A stretch of DNA of 64,000 nt from a virus: IMG/VR virus record IMGVR_UViG_3300005253_000015, positions 47,457-111,456 of that record. The stretch is one strand, 5' to 3'. The position numbers and the translations under genes were made by a program. Below are positions 2,950 to 48,717 of the stretch, in pieces. The notes beneath the pieces are model-generated. The model was not told the DNA's origin. It did not search any database and saw nothing but the letters and a program-made list of their open reading frames with translations. Position 1 is the stretch's first letter. Every line of letters begins with the position of its first letter.

Positions 2950-5900
2950 ATGGCTGGTAAAGGTTCAAAACAACTTGTTCGGGAACTCATTAATTTCTAT
3001 AAGGTAAATAGAGGTGGATATCCATACGAGATTATTTATAAATTAATCCAACTCTATCAAGTAATAGAAGATGTATACTCCGTCTCCACTGTGATAGAAC
3101 TCCAAGAAGCTATTGATAATATAGGAACTGATGCTGGTACTATTTTTATAGCTTCTGGAACTTATGATGTCACTACAACAATAGATATTGATAATTGTGG
3201 TTCACTTGTTATATATGGGCATGGAGACAATACAATTCTTAAAGCCGCTGATGGTATTACGATATTTAATATAACATGTGTTGCTTCTTGTCTAATAAAG
3301 ACATTAAAATTGGATATTACTAACTATACGGGAGATACTCAAGCCGTTTTAATTAATGAAACTAATAATAATATTGTTGGTTTTGAAGATGTATCTATTC
3401 TTGGAGCAGCGGCAAATGGTATAGGCATTGAAGTTCAATCCGATAACTGTTATATTGACCAATGTAATATACTACAAATGAAAACGGGCATTTATTTGAA
3501 TGGAGCTGAGAAAACAAAAATAACTGGAACTCTCTCTGGTCTTCATGTTAATTACGGGCTTCATTTAAATCAAGCAGATTTTAGTATTATTACTGGAAAT
3601 TCTTTTACTGCTAATACTTCTTATGGTATATATATTTATAATAGTGATTATTGTATTATTTCCAATACTGGATGTACGAGTAATCTTACTGGAATGTATT
3701 CGGATATTTCAAATTATAATACAATATCATCATGTTTATCTAATAGTAATTCGGAAAATGGTATATTTATAACTCAAGGCAATTATAATACAATATCAAG
3801 TAATACATTAAACAACAATGACTCTAATATAGCTGGTAATACTGCTGGATTATATATCACTAATAACTCTGATTTTAATACTATAACTGCTAACTCTATT
3901 AATAATAACAATAATTCTGGTGCTGGTACTGCTTACGGTATCTATATTGCTACAGCTGATTGTGATGAGAATGTAGTTGCCTCTAATAATGCTAACGGGA
4001 ATGATGTAGATTATCAAGACTCTGGAACATCCACAACTGTAATATATTATGTTCAAAATAGTGATGAGCTTCAAGACGCAATAGACTCTATTGGTTCTAG
4101 TGCTGGGACAATATACATTAATTCTAGCTTTACTGTATCAACTACTATTGATATTGATGGTGGTGGAAGCTATCTTATCGAAGGCGAAGGTAGTAATACA
4201 GTTTTAACTACTGGTATTGATATAAAATGTTTGAATGTAGACCTAGCTCGTCAATGTATATTACGGAACTTCAGAATTGACGCTAGTGCGTATACTGCTG
4301 CTGGTGTGGCACTGGAAATAATAGATGTTAATGAGAATAATAATGATTTAGTTATATTAGATAATGTATCTATTACTGGAGATGGTACTAATGGATACGG
4401 AATTGAATTAAATTCTAACAATTGTAGGATTGAAAATTGTGAGATAGATAATATAAGTATCGGTATTAATATTTTATCAACTAATAATATAATCTCTGGT
4501 AATAATGTTAATAACTGTAATACATATGGGATTCAAATAAGCTCAGCTAATACTAACAATGTAACAACAAACATCGTAGATAGCAACACAACTGGTATAT
4601 ATTTATCATCATCTGATTATGTTTTAGTAAGTGGGAATTCAGTAAACACTAATACTGAAAACGGTATAGAGCTCACTGGTAGTGATTATACTAATATTAG
4701 TGGGAATTCATGTATAGGGAATGATTCAAGTACAGCAAATCCTCAAGCTGGAATGTATATAAGCACAGACTCTAACAATAATAGTATTATTGGAAACACT
4801 ATTATCAATAATAATAATGCTGGTGCTGGAATTGGATACGGAGTATATATAGGAACAGCTACTTGTGATGAGAATATAGTTCGCTCTAATAATATTTCTG
4901 GAAATGATACACAGTGGGGTGATACTGGTACTAATACTCAAATAGAATATTTCTGTCTAACTGAGGGTCATATACAAGATGCTGTAGATTCTATAGCTGG
5001 TAAGGCTGGTACGATAATTATTGGAGAGGTTACCATTGCTATTACAACTGGCATAACTGTAGATAATGCTACCGCAAAGATACGCATTATTGGGAAAGGA
5101 CAACCATCTATATTACAACCAACTATTGGTATCACAGTATTTACATTTACAAATGCTTATGAGCTTCATTTAGAAGCCTTTTATATAGATATGGATAATT
5201 ATACAGCAGATACTACAAAAGCAATATTCAATAATGGTGCTAATTGTTTAAGACAAACTTACGAAGATATAACATTCGAGGGAACAGCTGATGGGATTGC
5301 GATATATAATTCTGGTGATTCTATTACTGTTAATAATTGTTATTTTAACAATGTATTTAATTGTATATACATTACGGGTTCTGTTGTAGCTTTTAAAATC
5401 ACTGGTAACGAATTCTGGACTATTAGAGATAGTTCTGTTTATATTGATTATGGTGAACAAGGTGTTATTGCCAATAATATAGCTGATGCTACTGGTGGTA
5501 AACCCGTTATAGATGTAATTCGAGGTAAATATATATCTATATCAAATAATCAAATCATTACGGGTGGAAGTACAGCTACTAATGGTTCATCAATACAAAT
5601 AACTGGTGCTGTTGCCAGTAGTGATATTCAGATAGTAGGTAATACCATCAGAAGTACAAATTCAAGTGGCACTACTAATAGTATGGTATACATGAGTGGT
5701 ACTGTTTCTCGAATAACAATATCTTCTAATGTAATCATTTCCTATACTAATAGTGATGATTCTTGGGGTATAATAATAGAGGATGCTACAGTTATAGATT
5801 GTACTATCACTGGGAATAGTATTTATGCTTTCGGGGGTATTAAAGTAGTAAATGCTGATAATATGGTTATCTCTGGGAACAAAATTACTGGTAATACTTC

Positions 5901-6411
5901 TTTAAAACAATCTGGTATATTATTAGAAGGGTCAATTGGAAATGCAATAACATCAAATATTATTGATGGAGTATCTGTTAACTTTGGTACGGATGTCAAT
6001 GGGATATCATTAACTTCCGTATCGACTGATAATATTATTGCGAACAATCGAATACTTGATATGGCTAATGCGGGAGCTGGAGATGGTTATGGAATAATTA
6101 TAGCTGCGGGATGTAATAATAATGTTATATCTGGAAATGTAATTACGAGTTGTGATACTAACTTGTCTGATGCGGGGACTGGAACTATATTATTTGGCGA
6201 TGATACTGCCTACGGAGCTGGTTGGAACGGGGACTTAGGCACTCCGACCAAGAATGTTATATATGACCAATTTGTAGCTACTTTAGCTGCTGCTGTTGCT
6301 TTAATATCTGATACTGCTTATGCGGCAAGTTGGGATGGAGTCACTACAATTGCTCCGAGTAAGAATGCTGTATATGATAAAATACAAGCTCTTATTGCTG
6401 TATGGGGTTAA
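2950..6411 (+). CDS. Giant three-module beta-helix fibre
   Basis: 1153 aa. After a helical N-terminus (about 1-40), three homologous modules begin near residues 41, 365 and 665. Each starts with an ELQEAIDNIG..AGTIFI motif and continues into Asn/Ser-rich NosD-like beta-helix rungs (NTISSCLSNSNSENGI and similar). Modules 1 and 2 end with the same ATCDEN/ADCDEN rung. The C-terminus carries two copies of an APSKNAVYD-type repeat (TPTKNVIYDQ, then IAPSKNAVYDKI), also found in 14058-16952. Most likely a tail fibre or spike binding host surface glycans; an enzymatic (lyase) activity cannot be judged. Its last 18 codons lie in the 105-bp inverted repeat. Confidence 0.82.
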   Translation: MAGKGSKQLVRELINFYKVNRGGYPYEIIYKLIQLYQVIEDVYSVSTVIELQEAIDNIGTDAGTIFIASGTYDVTTTIDIDNCGSLVIYGHGDNTILKAADGITIFNITCVASCLIKTLKLDITNYTGDTQAVLINETNNNIVGFEDVSILGAAANGIGIEVQSDNCYIDQCNILQMKTGIYLNGAEKTKITGTLSGLHVNYGLHLNQADFSIITGNSFTANTSYGIYIYNSDYCIISNTGCTSNLTGMYSDISNYNTISSCLSNSNSENGIFITQGNYNTISSNTLNNNDSNIAGNTAGLYITNNSDFNTITANSINNNNNSGAGTAYGIYIATADCDENVVASNNANGNDVDYQDSGTSTTVIYYVQNSDELQDAIDSIGSSAGTIYINSSFTVSTTIDIDGGGSYLIEGEGSNTVLTTGIDIKCLNVDLARQCILRNFRIDASAYTAAGVALEIIDVNENNNDLVILDNVSITGDGTNGYGIELNSNNCRIENCEIDNISIGINILSTNNIISGNNVNNCNTYGIQISSANTNNVTTNIVDSNTTGIYLSSSDYVLVSGNSVNTNTENGIELTGSDYTNISGNSCIGNDSSTANPQAGMYISTDSNNNSIIGNTIINNNNAGAGIGYGVYIGTATCDENIVRSNNISGNDTQWGDTGTNTQIEYFCLTEGHIQDAVDSIAGKAGTIIIGEVTIAITTGITVDNATAKIRIIGKGQPSILQPTIGITVFTFTNAYELHLEAFYIDMDNYTADTTKAIFNNGANCLRQTYEDITFEGTADGIAIYNSGDSITVNNCYFNNVFNCIYITGSVVAFKITGNEFWTIRDSSVYIDYGEQGVIANNIADATGGKPVIDVIRGKYISISNNQIITGGSTATNGSSIQITGAVASSDIQIVGNTIRSTNSSGTTNSMVYMSGTVSRITISSNVIISYTNSDDSWGIIIEDATVIDCTITGNSIYAFGGIKVVNADNMVISGNKITGNTSLKQSGILLEGSIGNAITSNIIDGVSVNFGTDVNGISLTSVSTDNIIANNRILDMANAGAGDGYGIIIAAGCNNNVISGNVITSCDTNLSDAGTGTILFGDDTAYGAGWNGDLGTPTKNVIYDQFVATLAAAVALISDTAYAASWDGVTTIAPSKNAVYDKIQALIAVWG

Positions 6412-6468: not shown

Positions 6469-7389
6469 ATGAAGAAAATAGAGTTTAAAAGACAGTTTTT
6501 TATAAAAGATTTATTCATACCTGAAAGAGTTATTAATTGTTTTAATTGTATTGAATTTGAATCTTATCAAATATTTAGTTATTGTATTGAGAATGATTTG
6601 TTTATAATCCCAGAGAATGGGTTTATATTTATACCAATAAAGAGTATATCTGATTATAAAAGTATGGTTAAGATATTTAACGAAACTAATATATGTAATA
6701 ATAGCTATTTATATTTAATAATAGAAGAACAATCCCTTCTTGATGCGGTACTTTCCACTATTGTAGATAAAAGGTTTAGTATTTTAATCACTAAAGATTT
6801 AAAAATAGATTTTGTTAAGTACTGGAATAATACAATTGGAAAAGAATGGATTTCTAAAAACAGAATCATTAAAAAGATAAAAATAGACTATCCTAATTAT
6901 GATAGACAAATTAATGAAATGATTAGTATATTCAATGAGGAATTTATAAGATTTTTCTTATTAGATTTTGATTATGTATCATTTGAAAAGATAAAAATAG
7001 AAGAGATACACAAACTAAAATTCTGGATACGTAATTTTATTGGCTGGACAAAATTAAAAGATGTTGATTCAATAGAAATCATATCAACTCCATTTGTTAG
7101 AAAGATTTTTGTTTCTGATGAGTTGGTCTTATATATGGATAATAAGAAAAAAGACATATGGTCATTTGATTTAATGTTATATTTAAAAGACGATGGAGAA
7201 AGTATGCCAATGAGAGAGCTCAATCTTCTTAGGAAATATATTGACTTTGTACCAAATGCTATGTACACAGAATCTAAAATAACAAATTGGTTTTTAATGG
7301 ATTATGCTCAATGTAAAGAAATTCAGGGAAGTTTAAATGAAATACCATTAATGATGGGATTAATAAATAGGTGGTTATATGATTTTTAA
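6469..7389 (+). CDS. Unknown protein, partner of the radical SAM enzyme
   Basis: 306 aa, no recognised domain. Mixed alpha/beta with many aromatic residues (NFIGWTKLKD, WFLMDYAQCKE); no signal peptide and no clear membrane span. Its 3' end overlaps the radical SAM gene by 11 nt, so they are almost certainly co-translated. By analogy with peptide-modification operons it could recognise or present the substrate, but that is inference. It is transcribed from the TATA box inside the inverted repeat. Confidence 0.6.
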   Translation: MKKIEFKRQFFIKDLFIPERVINCFNCIEFESYQIFSYCIENDLFIIPENGFIFIPIKSISDYKSMVKIFNETNICNNSYLYLIIEEQSLLDAVLSTIVDKRFSILITKDLKIDFVKYWNNTIGKEWISKNRIIKKIKIDYPNYDRQINEMISIFNEEFIRFFLLDFDYVSFEKIKIEEIHKLKFWIRNFIGWTKLKDVDSIEIISTPFVRKIFVSDELVLYMDNKKKDIWSFDLMLYLKDDGESMPMRELNLLRKYIDFVPNAMYTESKITNWFLMDYAQCKEIQGSLNEIPLMMGLINRWLYDF

Positions 7390-8554
7390 TGTTGTGTGTC
7401 CAGATATTTTGATTTCAACAAATTGTAATATGAGATGTAAGTATTGTTTTGAGAAGGATAAAATTAACGAGGTTATGGATGAAGAAAGAATATTAGAATA
7501 TTATTCACATAATCCCTGTACAGGAACATTTCCTATTGGTGGTGAACCTTTTCTAAATTTAGATTTACTCTTCAAAATAATGGATACAGTAGAAAATAAT
7601 AAAATTATACAAGAGAAAAGAAAAAAAACGTTATTACAGAATTTAAAATGTGTTATTACTAATGGAACTTTAATTAAACAAAACATACAGAAGATTAAGG
7701 ATTATGGATTAATATTACAGATAAGTTTCGATGGTTCTAAAAAAGTTCATGATACTTATAGGGTTTTTCCTAATGGAAAGGGAACGTATGATAAAATCAT
7801 TGAAGGATTAGAACTTTGCGTAAAAGAAGGAATTGAATGGTCTATTCATGGTGTTGTAGCTAAAGATACTATTAAATATTTCTATGATACGTTTGTATGG
7901 TTTTTTGAGATATATAAAAAATACAAAGAATTAGATATAGCAATAGATTTTATGAAGAATAACGTATTTCAAGTAATATTCGAACAAGATTATTCTGATA
8001 AAGATGTTGATGAACTAGTCAGACAGTTTCATAAAATTGCTGAATGGATTTATTCAAGAGATTATATGACTATTAAACAAAAAGACCAATTATTTCATAA
8101 CTTCTTAGAAAGACGTGGTGGTGTTTGTTCAGCTGGAACAACATTAATAGCTTTTGATAATAATTTAGATATGTTTCCATGTCATAGACTTGCTGTTGTA
8201 CCAGAGAAAGAAAATTATTACCTAGGAAATGCTATGGATATTAAGACTATTAAAAATTTCAAACAATATAACTCTTACTATAATATTGGGAGAGGTTATA
8301 AATACATGTATTCAGCTATACAACATAACCACGATTACAAAGACAAGGAGAGTTTGAGATGGTTTATGTGGTGTCCTGCTACAAATTTACAAACATCTGA
8401 AAATGTTTATTATCAGAATGCTAAATATAATGTGATGTTTGTTGAAGTAAATAGAATGGTTAGAGCACTTAAGAAAATATATTATCAAAATAGTGATTTA
8501 ATAAAAGAAAAGGATAATGCCAATAAGCTCAGGAAGCCCGATACTAGCAAGTGA
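7379..8554 (+). CDS. Radical SAM maturase (SPASM/twitch-like)
   Basis: 391 aa. The 4Fe-4S motif CNMRCKYC gives C16, C20 and C23, followed by the SAM-binding GGEPFLNLD at about 54-62. The C-terminal part has CSAGTTLIAFDNNLDMFPC near 249-266 and WCPATN near 338, resembling the auxiliary-cluster (SPASM or shorter twitch) region of enzymes that modify ribosomal peptides and proteins, such as sactisynthases and anaerobic sulfatase-maturing enzymes. Only three C-terminal Cys are obvious, fewer than a full SPASM domain. It overlaps the Cys-rich gene by 38 nt, making that protein the likely substrate. Requires a reducing, probably anaerobic, cell. Confidence 0.85.
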   Translation: MIFNVVCPDILISTNCNMRCKYCFEKDKINEVMDEERILEYYSHNPCTGTFPIGGEPFLNLDLLFKIMDTVENNKIIQEKRKKTLLQNLKCVITNGTLIKQNIQKIKDYGLILQISFDGSKKVHDTYRVFPNGKGTYDKIIEGLELCVKEGIEWSIHGVVAKDTIKYFYDTFVWFFEIYKKYKELDIAIDFMKNNVFQVIFEQDYSDKDVDELVRQFHKIAEWIYSRDYMTIKQKDQLFHNFLERRGGVCSAGTTLIAFDNNLDMFPCHRLAVVPEKENYYLGNAMDIKTIKNFKQYNSYYNIGRGYKYMYSAIQHNHDYKDKESLRWFMWCPATNLQTSENVYYQNAKYNVMFVEVNRMVRALKKIYYQNSDLIKEKDNANKLRKPDTSK

Positions 8555-9293
8555 TGTAAATGCTATTATCGCTAAGATAAATTCAGAGGAAAATAATAGA
8601 ACTGGGTTAGGTCTGTCTGATTTACCAGATATGATTGTTAGTAATCCTTGTTTGGCTTCAGACCACGATTCTTGGAGAACTCGTAATGATGCTATTAATG
8701 CTTTTCATTGTTATTGTGAAGCAGATGGAGGGCGTGATGCTGGTGATACTACTAAGACAGGTACAACATTAGGTCTAACTGCTCCTAATGTTACTTCTGG
8801 TAATTCAATGTTAGCTTCTCAACTTACAACTTTAGAAACAGATATAGATAATTTAGTAGCTCAATGTGATTGTGATACTTATGTTTGTAGTTGTGTAGGT
8901 AATTGTACTACTGTTTGTACTTGTAATACAAATGTATGTACTTGTGTAGGTAATTGTACTAGTGTCTGTTCTTGTAATACTAATGTTTGTACTTGTGTTT
9001 CCCAATGTGGTTGTAATACTAATGTATGTACTTGTGTAAGTCAAGGGTGTGCCTGTAATACTATTAGAACACCTGAATGTCTTGATTGGACATTCATATG
9101 TGGTTGCCAAAGTCAGGGGTGTAGTTGTAATCAATTATGTACTTGCGTAAATCAAGGCTGTGGTTGTAATCAATTGTGTACATGTGTAAGCAATGTGATT
9201 GCACAGTGTACTTGTAATCAATTGTGTACATGTGTAAGTAATGTGATTGCACAGTGTACTTGTAATAAAGTCTGTGGGTGTGAATATAACTAA
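8517..9293 (+). CDS. Cysteine-repeat protein, likely radical SAM substrate
   Basis: 258 aa with 42 Cys, 39 of them in the last 145 residues as CxC pairs in repeats such as CTCNTNVCTCV and CNQLCTCVSNVIAQ. The N-terminal about 110 residues lack the repeats and begin with ILASDVNAIIAKIN, a start seen in many phage structural or appendage proteins (general knowledge). The ATG lies inside the end of the radical SAM gene, and the next gene encodes a CxxCxxCC protein. The likely product is a rigid, cross-linked (thioether or disulfide) or metal-binding virion appendage. A metallothionein-like store is the alternative. Confidence 0.75.
   Translation: MPISSGSPILASDVNAIIAKINSEENNRTGLGLSDLPDMIVSNPCLASDHDSWRTRNDAINAFHCYCEADGGRDAGDTTKTGTTLGLTAPNVTSGNSMLASQLTTLETDIDNLVAQCDCDTYVCSCVGNCTTVCTCNTNVCTCVGNCTSVCSCNTNVCTCVSQCGCNTNVCTCVSQGCACNTIRTPECLDWTFICGCQSQGCSCNQLCTCVNQGCGCNQLCTCVSNVIAQCTCNQLCTCVSNVIAQCTCNKVCGCEYN
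9168..9263 (+). repeat. Tandem 48-bp repeat in the Cys-rich gene
   Basis: Two adjacent 48-bp copies (9168-9215 and 9216-9263) differ at one base (AGC versus AGT) and encode the 16-residue unit NQLCTCVSNVIAQCTC. Such near-identity inside a diverged repeat array shows recent expansion of the repeat number. Confidence 0.85.
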
Positions 9294-9709
9294 TGGTAGA
9301 TAAAGAAACTTATTGGAAGAAAGTTAATTTTATAGTAGATACTTCCATCTTTATTAGAAACGGAGCTTGTAATCGTTGTGGTAAATGTTGTTATGCGTAT
9401 GATGAAGAACATCCCCCAGAAGAGGGAATAAAAGTTCCATGTACTAAATTAAGTTATGATGGTGCTTTAGCAATATGTGGAATTCAAGAAAATAAATATC
9501 AAATCTGTAAAGATAATCCGATTTATCCTACACCATGTATGGTTTCAGAAGCTGTTGATACTTGTGGATATTCTTGGGTAGTTGATAATAGTTTAACAAA
9601 AACAAAAGCATTGGATAAGTTTAATATTATATGTGATGTTTGTCATAGAAAAGAACCATGTACTTATTACGATAAAATAGTTAATGAAATAAATGAGGTG
9701 TGTAAATAA
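9293..9709 (+). CDS. CxxCxxCC (YkgJ-like) metal- or Fe-S-binding protein
   Basis: 138 aa. CNRCGKCC at residues 26-33 is the signature of the YkgJ/CxxCxxCC family, thought to bind zinc or an iron-sulfur centre. Further Cys follow at VPCTKL, AICG, QICK, PTPCM, DTCGYSW, ICDVCHRKEPC. Its start codon overlaps the last base of the Cys-rich gene. YkgJ-like proteins are often found beside radical SAM genes, so an accessory role in maturation or metal loading is plausible; not shown here. Confidence 0.7.
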   Translation: MVDKETYWKKVNFIVDTSIFIRNGACNRCGKCCYAYDEEHPPEEGIKVPCTKLSYDGALAICGIQENKYQICKDNPIYPTPCMVSEAVDTCGYSWVVDNSLTKTKALDKFNIICDVCHRKEPCTYYDKIVNEINEVCK

Positions 9710-10272: not shown

Positions 10273-10800
10273 ATGATAATTTTTATAGATGGCGAGAGAA
10301 AATTTAAATTTATGAAAGGTTACAATATTAAACTCGGGGCTAAGATGTTTAAGATTATGGGAATCGAAGAGTTGCGATGGAAAGAGGCTATTGGTTCTGT
10401 AGCAACTGGAATTGCAACAACTAAAGACTGGGATACATATATGAAACCACTTGATAACTATATATATTTTGTTGAGTATATGGGAATAGACGGGTTCTGT
10501 GGGTTCGCATTACAATTTCCTAAAGGAATTGTTCATGGAGCTCCAAGAGGGCAAACTGAATATGTATATAAAGATGAGGCTGGAAAGCTAAATCCTATGT
10601 TCTATCCGTTTCTAATTTCCTCACCCGACTATCCAACATGGGCTGTATTTAATGCTGCTGCTATCGCTAATAACTCTGATGCTTACTTCTTTGGGGAAAG
10701 ATGGAGAGTTAAAATACTTAGTGGTACTGAGATTCAAGAAATAGGCTCTAATTTTACCGAAATGACTGACTATGCCAATAGTGGTATAGGTCAAGGATAA
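10273..10800 (+). CDS. Probable virion protein, unknown
   Basis: 175 aa, soluble, rich in aromatic residues and Gly (FVEYMGIDGFCGFALQFPKG, SSPDYPTWAVFNAAAIANN). No family recognised. It heads a compact plus-strand run (10273-12869) with two further beta-rich proteins and a coiled coil that ends in a lectin-like fibre, so a structural role (appendage base or capsid decoration) is the best contextual guess. Confidence 0.6.
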   Translation: MIIFIDGERKFKFMKGYNIKLGAKMFKIMGIEELRWKEAIGSVATGIATTKDWDTYMKPLDNYIYFVEYMGIDGFCGFALQFPKGIVHGAPRGQTEYVYKDEAGKLNPMFYPFLISSPDYPTWAVFNAAAIANNSDAYFFGERWRVKILSGTEIQEIGSNFTEMTDYANSGIGQG

Positions 10801-46107: not shown

Positions 46108-46859
46108 TGGCAGAAGGACATAATTATCAATTATTAACGGCAATAGTAAAAATTGTACGACCTAAGAACTCCCCAGTTCTAGGAATCGCTGATGGTATTG
46201 GAAAGTTTATGTGGCTTCCAACTGATAAGATTATTATATCACATCCACAACAATTTGATGTATGGCAAACGACTATATTTGCTATTGACCATACTTGGAA
46301 GATTACTTGGAAGGAAGAGCAAAACTGGGAGCAATATAAAAATACATACTCAAATACTAAACCAATTATACAACCAGTACCTTCAATGTTTATACAACAA
46401 ACCGTACCACAAGCACAAATGCCACCTACTCAATCAACAATGCCCATAAATCAACCGATTGTTCCGACTACAGCAACTCAACCAGCCAACCACCCAGAAC
46501 CATCAACCACAACTGCTCCACCAAATATGTTTCAACCATCACAAACAATTCCAGAACCACTTCAAGGCTCGATTCCTAATACATCATCGGATAGTATCAT
46601 ATCACCCCCACAAGTGGGAAAAGATGTTTATTTAGCAATAATAGCGAATGAATTAACATCAATTAGAAAATTGTTTGAGTTGTTTATAAACCCGCCTAAG
46701 TTAATCACTGCTGATGAATTAGTGGTTGAGAATATGAAAGTAAAAACTATGGAGCAAATAACAGAGGAGTTTGGAGCACCCCCTGCCGAAGAAGAGGCAC
46801 TTATTAATAAGCAGTTAGAGAGTAAAACTAATAAAGGCAAACTACCAAATATATTCTAA
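46107..46859 (+). CDS. Protein with Pro/Gln/Thr-rich linker
   Basis: 250 aa. Residues 1-80 are beta-rich (LLTAIVKIVRPKNSPVLGIA; VWQTTIFAIDHTWKITWKEE), small enough for an OB or SH3-like fold. A Pro/Gln/Thr linker spans about 90-165, and the helical/acidic C-terminus is SIRKLFELFI..MEQITEEFGAPPAEEE. The layout recalls single-strand-binding or scaffold proteins; not proven. Confidence 0.55.
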   Translation: MAEGHNYQLLTAIVKIVRPKNSPVLGIADGIGKFMWLPTDKIIISHPQQFDVWQTTIFAIDHTWKITWKEEQNWEQYKNTYSNTKPIIQPVPSMFIQQTVPQAQMPPTQSTMPINQPIVPTTATQPANHPEPSTTTAPPNMFQPSQTIPEPLQGSIPNTSSDSIISPPQVGKDVYLAIIANELTSIRKLFELFINPPKLITADELVVENMKVKTMEQITEEFGAPPAEEEALINKQLESKTNKGKLPNIF

Positions 46860-46876
46860 GGTAATAATTTTTGAGT

Positions 46877-47167
46877 ATGAAAAAATCTAAATCGTATGAA
46901 AAATTAGAACAAGAAAAGCTTATATTAGAAGGAGAACGATTCTCCGTTATAAGGAATTGTGTAATTAATAAGCTTGAATTATATAATTGTCAGAATTGTT
47001 TGATTTTATCAAATACTTTAGGACGGTTATATATTGGAGATAAAATCCCAGATTTTAATGATAAGAGATTCTTTAGAAAGATTCGGAGAAAGCGTTATCG
47101 CAATAAGTATGGAAGTAATAATAATATTATTACTAATAATATAGTAAAAGGATATGATATAATATAA
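46877..47167 (+). CDS. Basic small protein
   Basis: 96 aa from ATG 46877 (TTG 46871 also in frame). VIRNCVINKLELYNCQNCLI has a CxxC; C-terminus FRKIRRKRYRNKYGSNNN is very basic. Possibly nucleic-acid binding. Confidence 0.5.
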   Translation: MKKSKSYEKLEQEKLILEGERFSVIRNCVINKLELYNCQNCLILSNTLGRLYIGDKIPDFNDKRFFRKIRRKRYRNKYGSNNNIITNNIVKGYDII

Positions 47168-47379: not shown

Positions 47380-48717
47380 TTATCGCCTTACTCCACGCCC
47401 AATCCGTGCTTGTTGTTGTTTTCTTCTTTGTTCTTCTCTAAGTTTTTCATCTCTAAGCATTTTTTCTCTGGCTGCTTTATCTCTGGCTTTTTTAGCTGCG
47501 ATTGCTTTTGCTCGTGCTTGTGCTGCTCTCTTAGCCTCGTTCTGTTGTTTTGGGGTGAGTGGCGATACACCTATTGGGGGCTTTGCTCCTTGTGGCATTC
47601 TTGCTGCTGGTGGTGGTGGTTCTACTGGTATAACTCTTCCCCCTCGTACTCTTATCACTTGTGGTTTCGGTGCTGTTTCTACGACTGCTTGTTTTTTTGC
47701 TGTTTCTATTGCTTTTAATACTTGTCCAGCTCCTCCATTAATTCTAGCAGACATATTCTGAAACATTTTATTAAAATTAGATAAGAAGGCATCCATATCA
47801 GTATCAATATTAACTCCAGTAGCTTCTATTTGATTTGCTATGTTAGTGGATTTAGTTTTTATAGTATCACCAAAAGATTTAAAATTAGTTTTTAATGTAT
47901 CAAAAGCATCTCCGATTTGTTGGTATGCTTCCATCATTTCTGGTAATGCTGCCCCTGCCCCTGCTGGAGCGTTAGGTGGAGTTAGATATAATAAATATGC
48001 TACAGAATAAAAAGCATCAATCCCCATAGCAATAAAGTCTAGCCTTCTCGCATGATTAGGTATCCTTCTTGCCCAATTAGCAGATTCTATTATTGCTGGT
48101 TTTATTTCTGTTACGGCATCATTCATCTGTGTGGCAACACCTCTAATACCATCACTTAATGCTGTTGTTTTTTCTTTAATGTCAGTTCCAAATGAAATAA
48201 AATTATTTTTCATCTTATTTAACTCAGTACTTATAGTATCGGAAAGCTTCTTGCCTTGATTAGCAACTACACTAACGTCATTTCTTACACCATCACCTAC
48301 AGATATAAAAGTATCCTTCATTTTTGTTATAGGTGGCATAACATTTCTATCTACAAACCCCTTAATTTCGACCTTCATTTTAGTTAATAGGTCTGGTACT
48401 ACTACAGTATTAAGATGGTTTTCTATCTGTGCAGGGAGTGCCTTTATTTCATCTCTAGCGGCAATTATTTTATCATGTATAGTTGTTATTTCAACTTTAA
48501 GTTTTTCAAGTTTTTCGATATTTTCAGTTATACTAGCAAGATTTTTTATTATAGTAGGATTGGCATCACGTTCTTTCCATGACTCTATTGCTCCGAGCCT
48601 AGCAGAAATAGTACTTATATCTTCATATCCTGTTCGTACTCTTGTAATGATTTTTGGAGCTTGTTGATTACCCTCTTTATTATAAATAGCATTCTTAAGT
48701 TTCTCTATATAAGTCAT
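47380..48717 (-). CDS. Long coiled-coil protein with Pro/Arg-rich tail
   Basis: 445 aa. Residues 60-330 are helical repeats with recurring KMKDTFISVGDGV / KMKNNFISFGTDI / TLKTNFKSFGDTI units spaced about 40-50 residues. A more hydrophobic stretch (AMGIDAFYSVAYLLYLTPP) sits near 240. C-terminal 90 residues have VEPPPPAARMPQGAKPP then an Ala/Arg/Lys helix. Repeats plus hydrophobic segment resemble tape-measure or injection proteins, smaller than usual. Unproven. Confidence 0.6.
   Translation of the reverse strand: MTYIEKLKNAIYNKEGNQQAPKIITRVRTGYEDISTISARLGAIESWKERDANPTIIKNLASITENIEKLEKLKVEITTIHDKIIAARDEIKALPAQIENHLNTVVVPDLLTKMKVEIKGFVDRNVMPPITKMKDTFISVGDGVRNDVSVVANQGKKLSDTISTELNKMKNNFISFGTDIKEKTTALSDGIRGVATQMNDAVTEIKPAIIESANWARRIPNHARRLDFIAMGIDAFYSVAYLLYLTPPNAPAGAGAALPEMMEAYQQIGDAFDTLKTNFKSFGDTIKTKSTNIANQIEATGVNIDTDMDAFLSNFNKMFQNMSARINGGAGQVLKAIETAKKQAVVETAPKPQVIRVRGGRVIPVEPPPPAARMPQGAKPPIGVSPLTPKQQNEAKRAAQARAKAIAAKKARDKAAREKMLRDEKLREEQRRKQQQARIGRGVRR

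Follow-up and report, generated by a model that had tools for sequence, protein, structure and literature searches.

The presence of a radical S-adenosylmethionine (SAM) enzyme gene in a virus, overlapping the gene of a protein with 42 cysteines (Cys), raises the question of what such an enzyme modifies. The case at hand lies in a 64,000-nucleotide stretch of DNA, here called the window (positions 47,457 to 111,456 of the IMG/VR virus record IMGVR_UViG_3300005253_000015), in which four plus-strand genes with consecutive overlaps of 11, 38 and 1 bases form an operon. These encode an orphan protein (306 amino acids (aa); 6469..7389), a radical SAM enzyme that we propose as a maturase (391 aa; 7379..8554), a Cys-repeat protein proposed as its substrate and as an appendage protein (258 aa; 8517..9293), and a CxxCxxCC (YkgJ-like) protein with the motif CNRCGKCC (138 aa; 9293..9709). 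An earlier note on this DNA had described four overlapping genes, and their sizes and motifs are confirmed by the open reading frames, Pfam and the Cys counts. The answer proposed here, to which we assign a probability of about one half, is that widespread tailed viruses build appendage tips from Cys-repeat proteins covalently cross-linked by their own radical SAM maturases. Chemistry of the type known from ribosomally synthesized and post-translationally modified peptides (RiPPs) would thus serve virion assembly, acquired many times and accompanied in some lineages by split S74 chaperones.

Co-occurrence of Cys-repeat proteins and radical SAM genes

A tblastn search of the Cys proteins against phage records gave no match, probably owing to low-complexity masking of the repeats, and DNA patterns were used instead. 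The pattern, DNA encoding CxCNYCTCxCNYCTC, made no reference to radical SAM and matched 42 viral records, 38 of which contain a gene over the Pfam cut-off for Radical_SAM (41 of 45 with loci from other routes), often with five to 16 radical SAM genes per Cys-repeat record. The controls were 50 contigs no shorter than 16 kb (48 picked for an S74-like fibre motif and two at random), and Radical_SAM was present in four of them, against 38 of 42 (Fisher p = 9e-17), a contrast that is partly confounded by the greater average length of the Cys-repeat records. A CxC-repeat pattern was found in none of the 50 controls. When the pattern-found records were grouped via shared proteins into 14 lineages, 13 of these had radical SAM (p = 2e-9 versus the same controls). 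One of the four radical-SAM-positive controls, L165, encodes a short Cys-rich S74 protein directly beside its radical SAM genes.

In the reverse direction, searches starting from radical SAM reached loci beside Cys-repeat proteins in many lineages, and several same-strand enzyme/Cys-protein pairs are separated by no more than about 25 bp. The co-occurrence search that the earlier note had suggested therefore places enzyme and Cys protein together far above chance, across unrelated viruses. For the enzymes adjoining Cys proteins, a quick tree with long branches contains at least eight changes forced by well-supported branches, and the pairing has therefore been assembled repeatedly. A single ancestral maturase was considered and ruled out on the scatter of the adjacent enzymes in this tree.

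The operon of the window is not a chance arrangement, since its orphan, enzyme and Cys-protein genes recur in three further viruses (L002, L041 and L215) with 27-54% identity, the four enzymes forming a single clade with a support of 100. L002, a 99.5-kb virus contig, holds all four genes in the same order (identities of 33, 47, 54 and 36%), the fourth being present twice. The 109.5-kb virus L041 encodes the enzyme, the Cys protein, a glycosyltransferase-like protein, the orphan and a second radical SAM enzyme, and L215, an 11-kb contig of a Bathyarchaeota genome bin, a beta-helix fibre, the orphan, the enzyme, a sulfotransferase and the Cys protein. The enzyme and Cys-protein genes overlap in the window and in L002, and are 13 bp apart in L041 and 652 bp apart in L215. 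In the window's record (G000, 111,456 bp) the operon's radical SAM gene is the only one. The gene of the proposed substrate beside that of its presumed modifying enzyme gives a RiPP-like layout, as a gene arrangement alone; the operon contains no protease or transporter gene.

Sulfotransferase genes adjoin the operon in L002 (10828-11481; Pfam 2.9e-14) and L215 (3762-4457; Pfam 1.5e-12), and may possibly account for a second modification of the fibre or of the host surface. Bathyarchaeota were considered as host on account of the L215 bin and set aside, the orphan occurring in one of 257 genomes of that class, which is too weak for an assignment.

The radical SAM enzyme and its closest families

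With 55.2 bits against Pfam Radical_SAM (PF04055; cut-off 29.5, E 1.2e-14), the enzyme belongs to the radical SAM superfamily. It carries GGEP and the CX3CX2C motif as CNMRCKYC (residues 16-23; 7424..7447), shares 36-47% identity with the three viral copies, and has seven Cys that are invariant in the four viruses: the three of this motif (C16, C20 and C23), C147, C250, C268 and C332. The SPASM domain is defined by the seven-Cys motif CX9-15GX4C-gap-CX2CX5CX3C-gap-C, whereas Twitch is a half-SPASM with one auxiliary cluster, and auxiliary cluster I (Aux I) sites can be open (PMC6231123). The CX2CX5CX3C block, and with it the full SPASM motif, is absent from the enzyme, whose conserved Cys after the barrel are C250, C268 and C332 (8126..8374; invariant alignment columns in the four viruses). 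These three fit the first half of SPASM, the structure model being too poor to place them; in place of the full SPASM type named in the earlier note, the C-terminal region is probably a half-SPASM, Twitch-like one. Judged from its sequence, this region probably binds an auxiliary iron-sulfur (Fe-S) cluster, one site of which may be open, and we infer that such a site would bind a substrate Cys.

Among the NCBIfam families the top match of the enzyme is PapB (NF047865; 4e-32), with 111.7 bits against a curated cut-off of 340, followed by the CXXX-repeat, DynA, nif11, CefB, CcpM and SCIFF maturases, all well under cut-off. The top match by sequence in the PDB is CteB (5wgg; 9.8e-8). PapB also heads the NCBIfam matches of ten other Cys-linked viral enzymes (the L041 copy and nine from other lineages, which are spread over the tree), always below cut-off.

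PapB is a ranthipeptide maturase that forms thioethers in its substrate PapA. The viral system resembles this pair in having repeated Cys motifs as the presumed target and in its enzymes, for which PapB is the top curated family, but differs in the three Cys that take the place of a full SPASM domain and in a substrate that is a long protein instead of a short peptide. The SCIFF system (TIGR03974), whose maturase CteB has an open site in Aux I (PMC6231123), likewise combines a radical SAM enzyme with a Cys-rich substrate; the window enzyme, however, lacks the motif for a second auxiliary cluster and begins directly with the radical SAM domain, so that a recognition domain such as that of CteB would not fit at its N-terminus. 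In the CXXX-repeat system (TIGR04115) and that of CefB (NF038107), with a Cys at every fifth position, a radical SAM enzyme is dedicated to a periodic Cys-repeat target as well. These systems are cellular and without fibre modules, whereas the viral period consists of CxC steps of 2, 4 and 5 or of a 7-residue unit, and the scores to both families are far under their cut-offs.

The Cys-repeat proteins as probable appendage proteins

Of the 42 Cys of the window protein, 39 fall within the final 145 residues; 19 CxC are counted, compared with at most four in the runner-up stop-to-stop frame (at least 60 codons) of the window. The tract (residues 117-255, all 39 Cys, ending CGCEYN; 8865..9281) is regular, since the steps from Cys to Cys concentrate on 2 (19 times), 4 (nine times) and 5 (seven times). 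It is preceded by the block HCYCEADG (8706..8729), which is present in three of the four Cys proteins (window, L002 and L215); the C-terminal end reads CEYN or CEFGG. Across the lineages, the N-terminal parts diverge strongly and the C-terminal tracts are of several types, i.e. a 7-residue CxCNYCT, an 8-residue CxCNYACT, CTCTCT, CNSRT and the 2/4/5 steps of the window, which share their Cys density. Besides Cys, the repeats keep N (142/147), Y (136/147) and T (127/147), counts that are partly biased by the search pattern. The proteins are mostly long, with about 130-530 aa.

The S74 fibre chaperone cuts itself off at the Ser of its SDxRLK start. In the wider family the Cys tract runs into such a start, a feature shared with S74 (endosialidase chaperone) fibres, in 20 of 38 distinct sequences, with a Pfam match to S74 in L048 (2.8e-8). 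The mature Cys protein would therefore end at the Cys tract, as an exposed tip. These proteins are unlike known S74 fibres in that the Cys tract replaces the known receptor-binding tip, and those of the window, L002, L041 and L215 end without S74.

Six loci (L003, L023, L053, L061, L070 and L303) have a split S74, in which SDxRLKxxIxY is the last part that the Cys protein contains, another frame just downstream encoding the remainder; in L053 four tandem Cys paralogues are accompanied by one S74 remainder, as if a single chaperone served all of them in trans. The number of 8-residue Cys units differs among the near-identical viruses L016-L019 (9929-11023; 86 versus 83 Cys), so that tract length varies over short times. 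Two proteins of the different, CNSRT repeat type (35 and 57 Cys) are found in L010:1212-3800, a virus contig which also has radical SAM genes. In an Omnitrophota bin (L272:7420-9098) the gene of a CTCTCT-repeat protein overlaps a PapB-like radical SAM gene; this locus, kin of the virus contigs L005, L006, L009 and L012, is possibly a provirus or a host link.

The operon has fibre and baseplate genes as neighbours, in line with the fibre context given in the earlier note. In the window its immediate upstream neighbour (2950..6411, plus strand) encodes a right-handed beta-helix fibre or spike protein of 1153 aa (Pfam NosD 6.9e-37, Beta_helix 2e-34), a homologue of which stands at the same place in L215 (142-1755; 30% identity, E 9e-52). 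On the other side, a homologue of the plus-strand gene at 10273..10800 follows the Cys protein in L215 (29% identity, E 7e-26), so that the L215 operon is bordered on both sides by homologues of the window's neighbouring genes. The L002 operon is located inside a baseplate/fibre block, with sheath-initiator and Baseplate_J genes no more than 3 kb downstream. Given these two genes and the S74 ends, an appendage is the likeliest role of the Cys protein, one that we consider rather likely.

Cultured phages and published observations

The Cys-repeat set includes the Campylobacter phages CP220, CPt10 and CP21. Their Cys protein (CPt10_1891, CPT_0180 in CP220, AEF56812 in IBB_35; phrog_26958), which is annotated as hypothetical in most records, is encoded near gp19 and an RNA ligase/tail-fibre attachment gene; the closest radical SAM gene follows downstream at a distance of 2.3 kb. 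Timms et al. reported 11-12 radical SAM proteins (up to 12 in CPt10), which were treated as metabolic, and noted separately a 21-bp repeat inside the phrog_26958 gene (PMC2853527). Group III Campylobacter phages are without the SAM proteins (PMC4546147), and in pelagimyophages radical SAM cassettes vary within the host-recognition cluster (PMC7029224). The group II Campylobacter phages thus resemble the window in having a Cys-repeat protein beside tail genes in a radical-SAM-rich virus, but differ in the unrelated N-terminal part of phrog_26958 and in the distance to the closest enzyme; the literature consulted never linked this protein to the enzymes. In the SPN3US jumbo phages, radical SAM genes occur without an adjacent gene for a Cys-repeat protein, and some phage radical SAM genes therefore lie outside the Cys-repeat system. 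According to the earlier note, a dedicated maturase for a virion component would be a new type of system. No earlier description of the pairing was found in the open-access literature searched. The system is not unique to the window virus, being already present, unnoticed, in cultured Campylobacter phages.

The orphan and CxxCxxCC proteins

The orphan shares 27-33% identity with its copies in L002, L041 and L215, was found in none of the other loci analysed and has no match in Pfam, NCBIfam or PHROGs. Its model (mean predicted local distance difference test (pLDDT) 57.8) is a low-confidence alpha/beta, TIM-barrel-like fold, with weak TIM-barrel matches that include TigE and CteB. It may conceivably be a decayed radical SAM protein; profile comparisons of the orphan with the window family and with a set of 223 radical SAM sequences were negative (E about 0.75). 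The orphan is a candidate partner or substrate-presenting protein. The CxxCxxCC gene was found in the window and in L002 (two copies) and not in L041 or L215; being in only two of the four viruses, it is regarded as accessory. With YkgJ/CxxCxxCC (PF03692) the window copy gave no match and the L002 copy 22.7 bits, just under the 23-bit cut-off (E 1.7e-4). Another protein, of the CxxCxxxCC type, is encoded by the same virus just upstream of the window (L310:6460-6882; record 46460-46882).

Proposed mechanism and alternative explanations

In the proposed mechanism, the enzyme would cleave SAM at the [4Fe-4S] cluster of its CX3CX2C motif and would abstract hydrogen from residues adjoining the repeat Cys, the thiols of which would be held or oxidised by the half-SPASM auxiliary cluster. 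Successive thioether cross-links would thereby form along the CxC tract, in a protein serving as cap or tip of a tail fibre. The orphan probably presents the substrate, because the enzyme has no N-terminal recognition domain of its own, and delivery of Fe-S or protection of thiols may be the task of the CxxCxxCC protein. We regard it as very probable that the enzyme acts on the Cys protein; that a radical SAM maturase encoded by the virus acts on an appendage protein of the virion, irrespective of the type of link, is favoured to a lesser degree, and the chances that the link is a thioether are about even.

Another chemistry on the same appendage protein is an unlikely alternative, with the enzyme performing epimerisation (PoyD-like, towards a D/L beta-helix), S-methylation of Cys or formation of C-C cyclophanes, and the Cys serving as disulfides or metal ligands. 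The conservation of N, Y and T in the repeat, within the bias noted above, makes a target other than Cys conceivable, the two to five radical SAM genes at several loci point to multiple changes, and the cyclophane maturases DynA and GrrM/OscB are among the matches of the enzyme. Against this, a maturase of Cys thioethers, PapB, tops the matches of every Cys-adjacent enzyme scanned, and Cys density is the sole trait common to the differing repeats. It is less likely again that the Cys protein works unmodified, as a metal-binding or disulfide-bonded protein, and that the enzyme serves host metabolism or the change of a surface glycan or of DNA. Such a role would agree with the metabolic function proposed by Timms et al. 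(PMC2853527), with the SPN3US phages and with the one Cys-protein lineage that is without radical SAM in the available fragments, but is difficult to reconcile with the adjacency and overlap of the genes, their repeated independent pairing and the frequencies of 38/42 versus 4/50. Least likely of all, a precursor of a released peptide, i.e. a viral RiPP aimed at host or rivals instead of a part of the virion, would follow the precursor-and-maturase logic of RiPPs and the kinship of the enzyme with peptide maturases; the operon, however, provides neither transporter nor protease, and the Cys proteins are mostly long, in many cases S74-ended, and encoded among fibre and baseplate genes.

Several observations weigh against cross-linked appendage tips as well. 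The earlier note had named Cys-protein homologues without a radical SAM gene as evidence against the pairing, and these do occur in one lineage (L055/L056/L058/L077, represented by 13-60 kb fragments, the Cys gene reaching the end of the sequence in two of them), the other 13 of the 14 lineages carrying radical SAM. The window Cys protein ends in CEYN without the chaperone (S74, PF13884, absent by Pfam), and CPT_0180 is not among the 11 identified virion bands of CP220. As to the enzyme, the SPASM region contains three Cys rather than seven, the scores to the PapB, CXXX-repeat and SCIFF maturases are far under the curated cut-offs, and the structure models are poor (pLDDT 56-58, with 56 for the enzyme). 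The cross-linked Cys appendage envisaged by the earlier note is thus upheld as far as co-occurrence, the Cys-peptide maturases as nearest family, the fibre/baseplate context and the S74 ends of the wider family are concerned, whereas virion presence and cross-linking are inferred.

Other genes of the window's virus

Five further genes of this virus record were recognised by eye. One resembles a caspase/gingipain-like protease (L309:15523-16164), one is ADP-ribosyltransferase-like with an FYHGT... motif and no Pfam match (L309:5566-6591), and three similar, free-standing ones are HNH homing-endonuclease-like (L309:16226-16912, L310:1743-2159 and L310:5961-6479). An AAA ATPase (L308:9566-11104; Pfam 8e-28) points weakly, as does L215, to an archaeal host.

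Implications for phage biology

Radical SAM genes of phages have been an unexplained oddity, commonly ascribed to host metabolism. With the pairing described here, the Cys-repeat protein becomes their candidate substrate and the tail tip their candidate site of action, and the resulting prediction is testable in cultured Campylobacter phages. The pairing suggests that many unrelated viruses of bacteria, and perhaps of archaea, chemically harden or cap a part of their own particle. If true, irreversible radical cross-linking would join the known ways of virus particle maturation, and cross-linked protein materials could be made with the many enzyme-repeat pairs that these viruses would provide.

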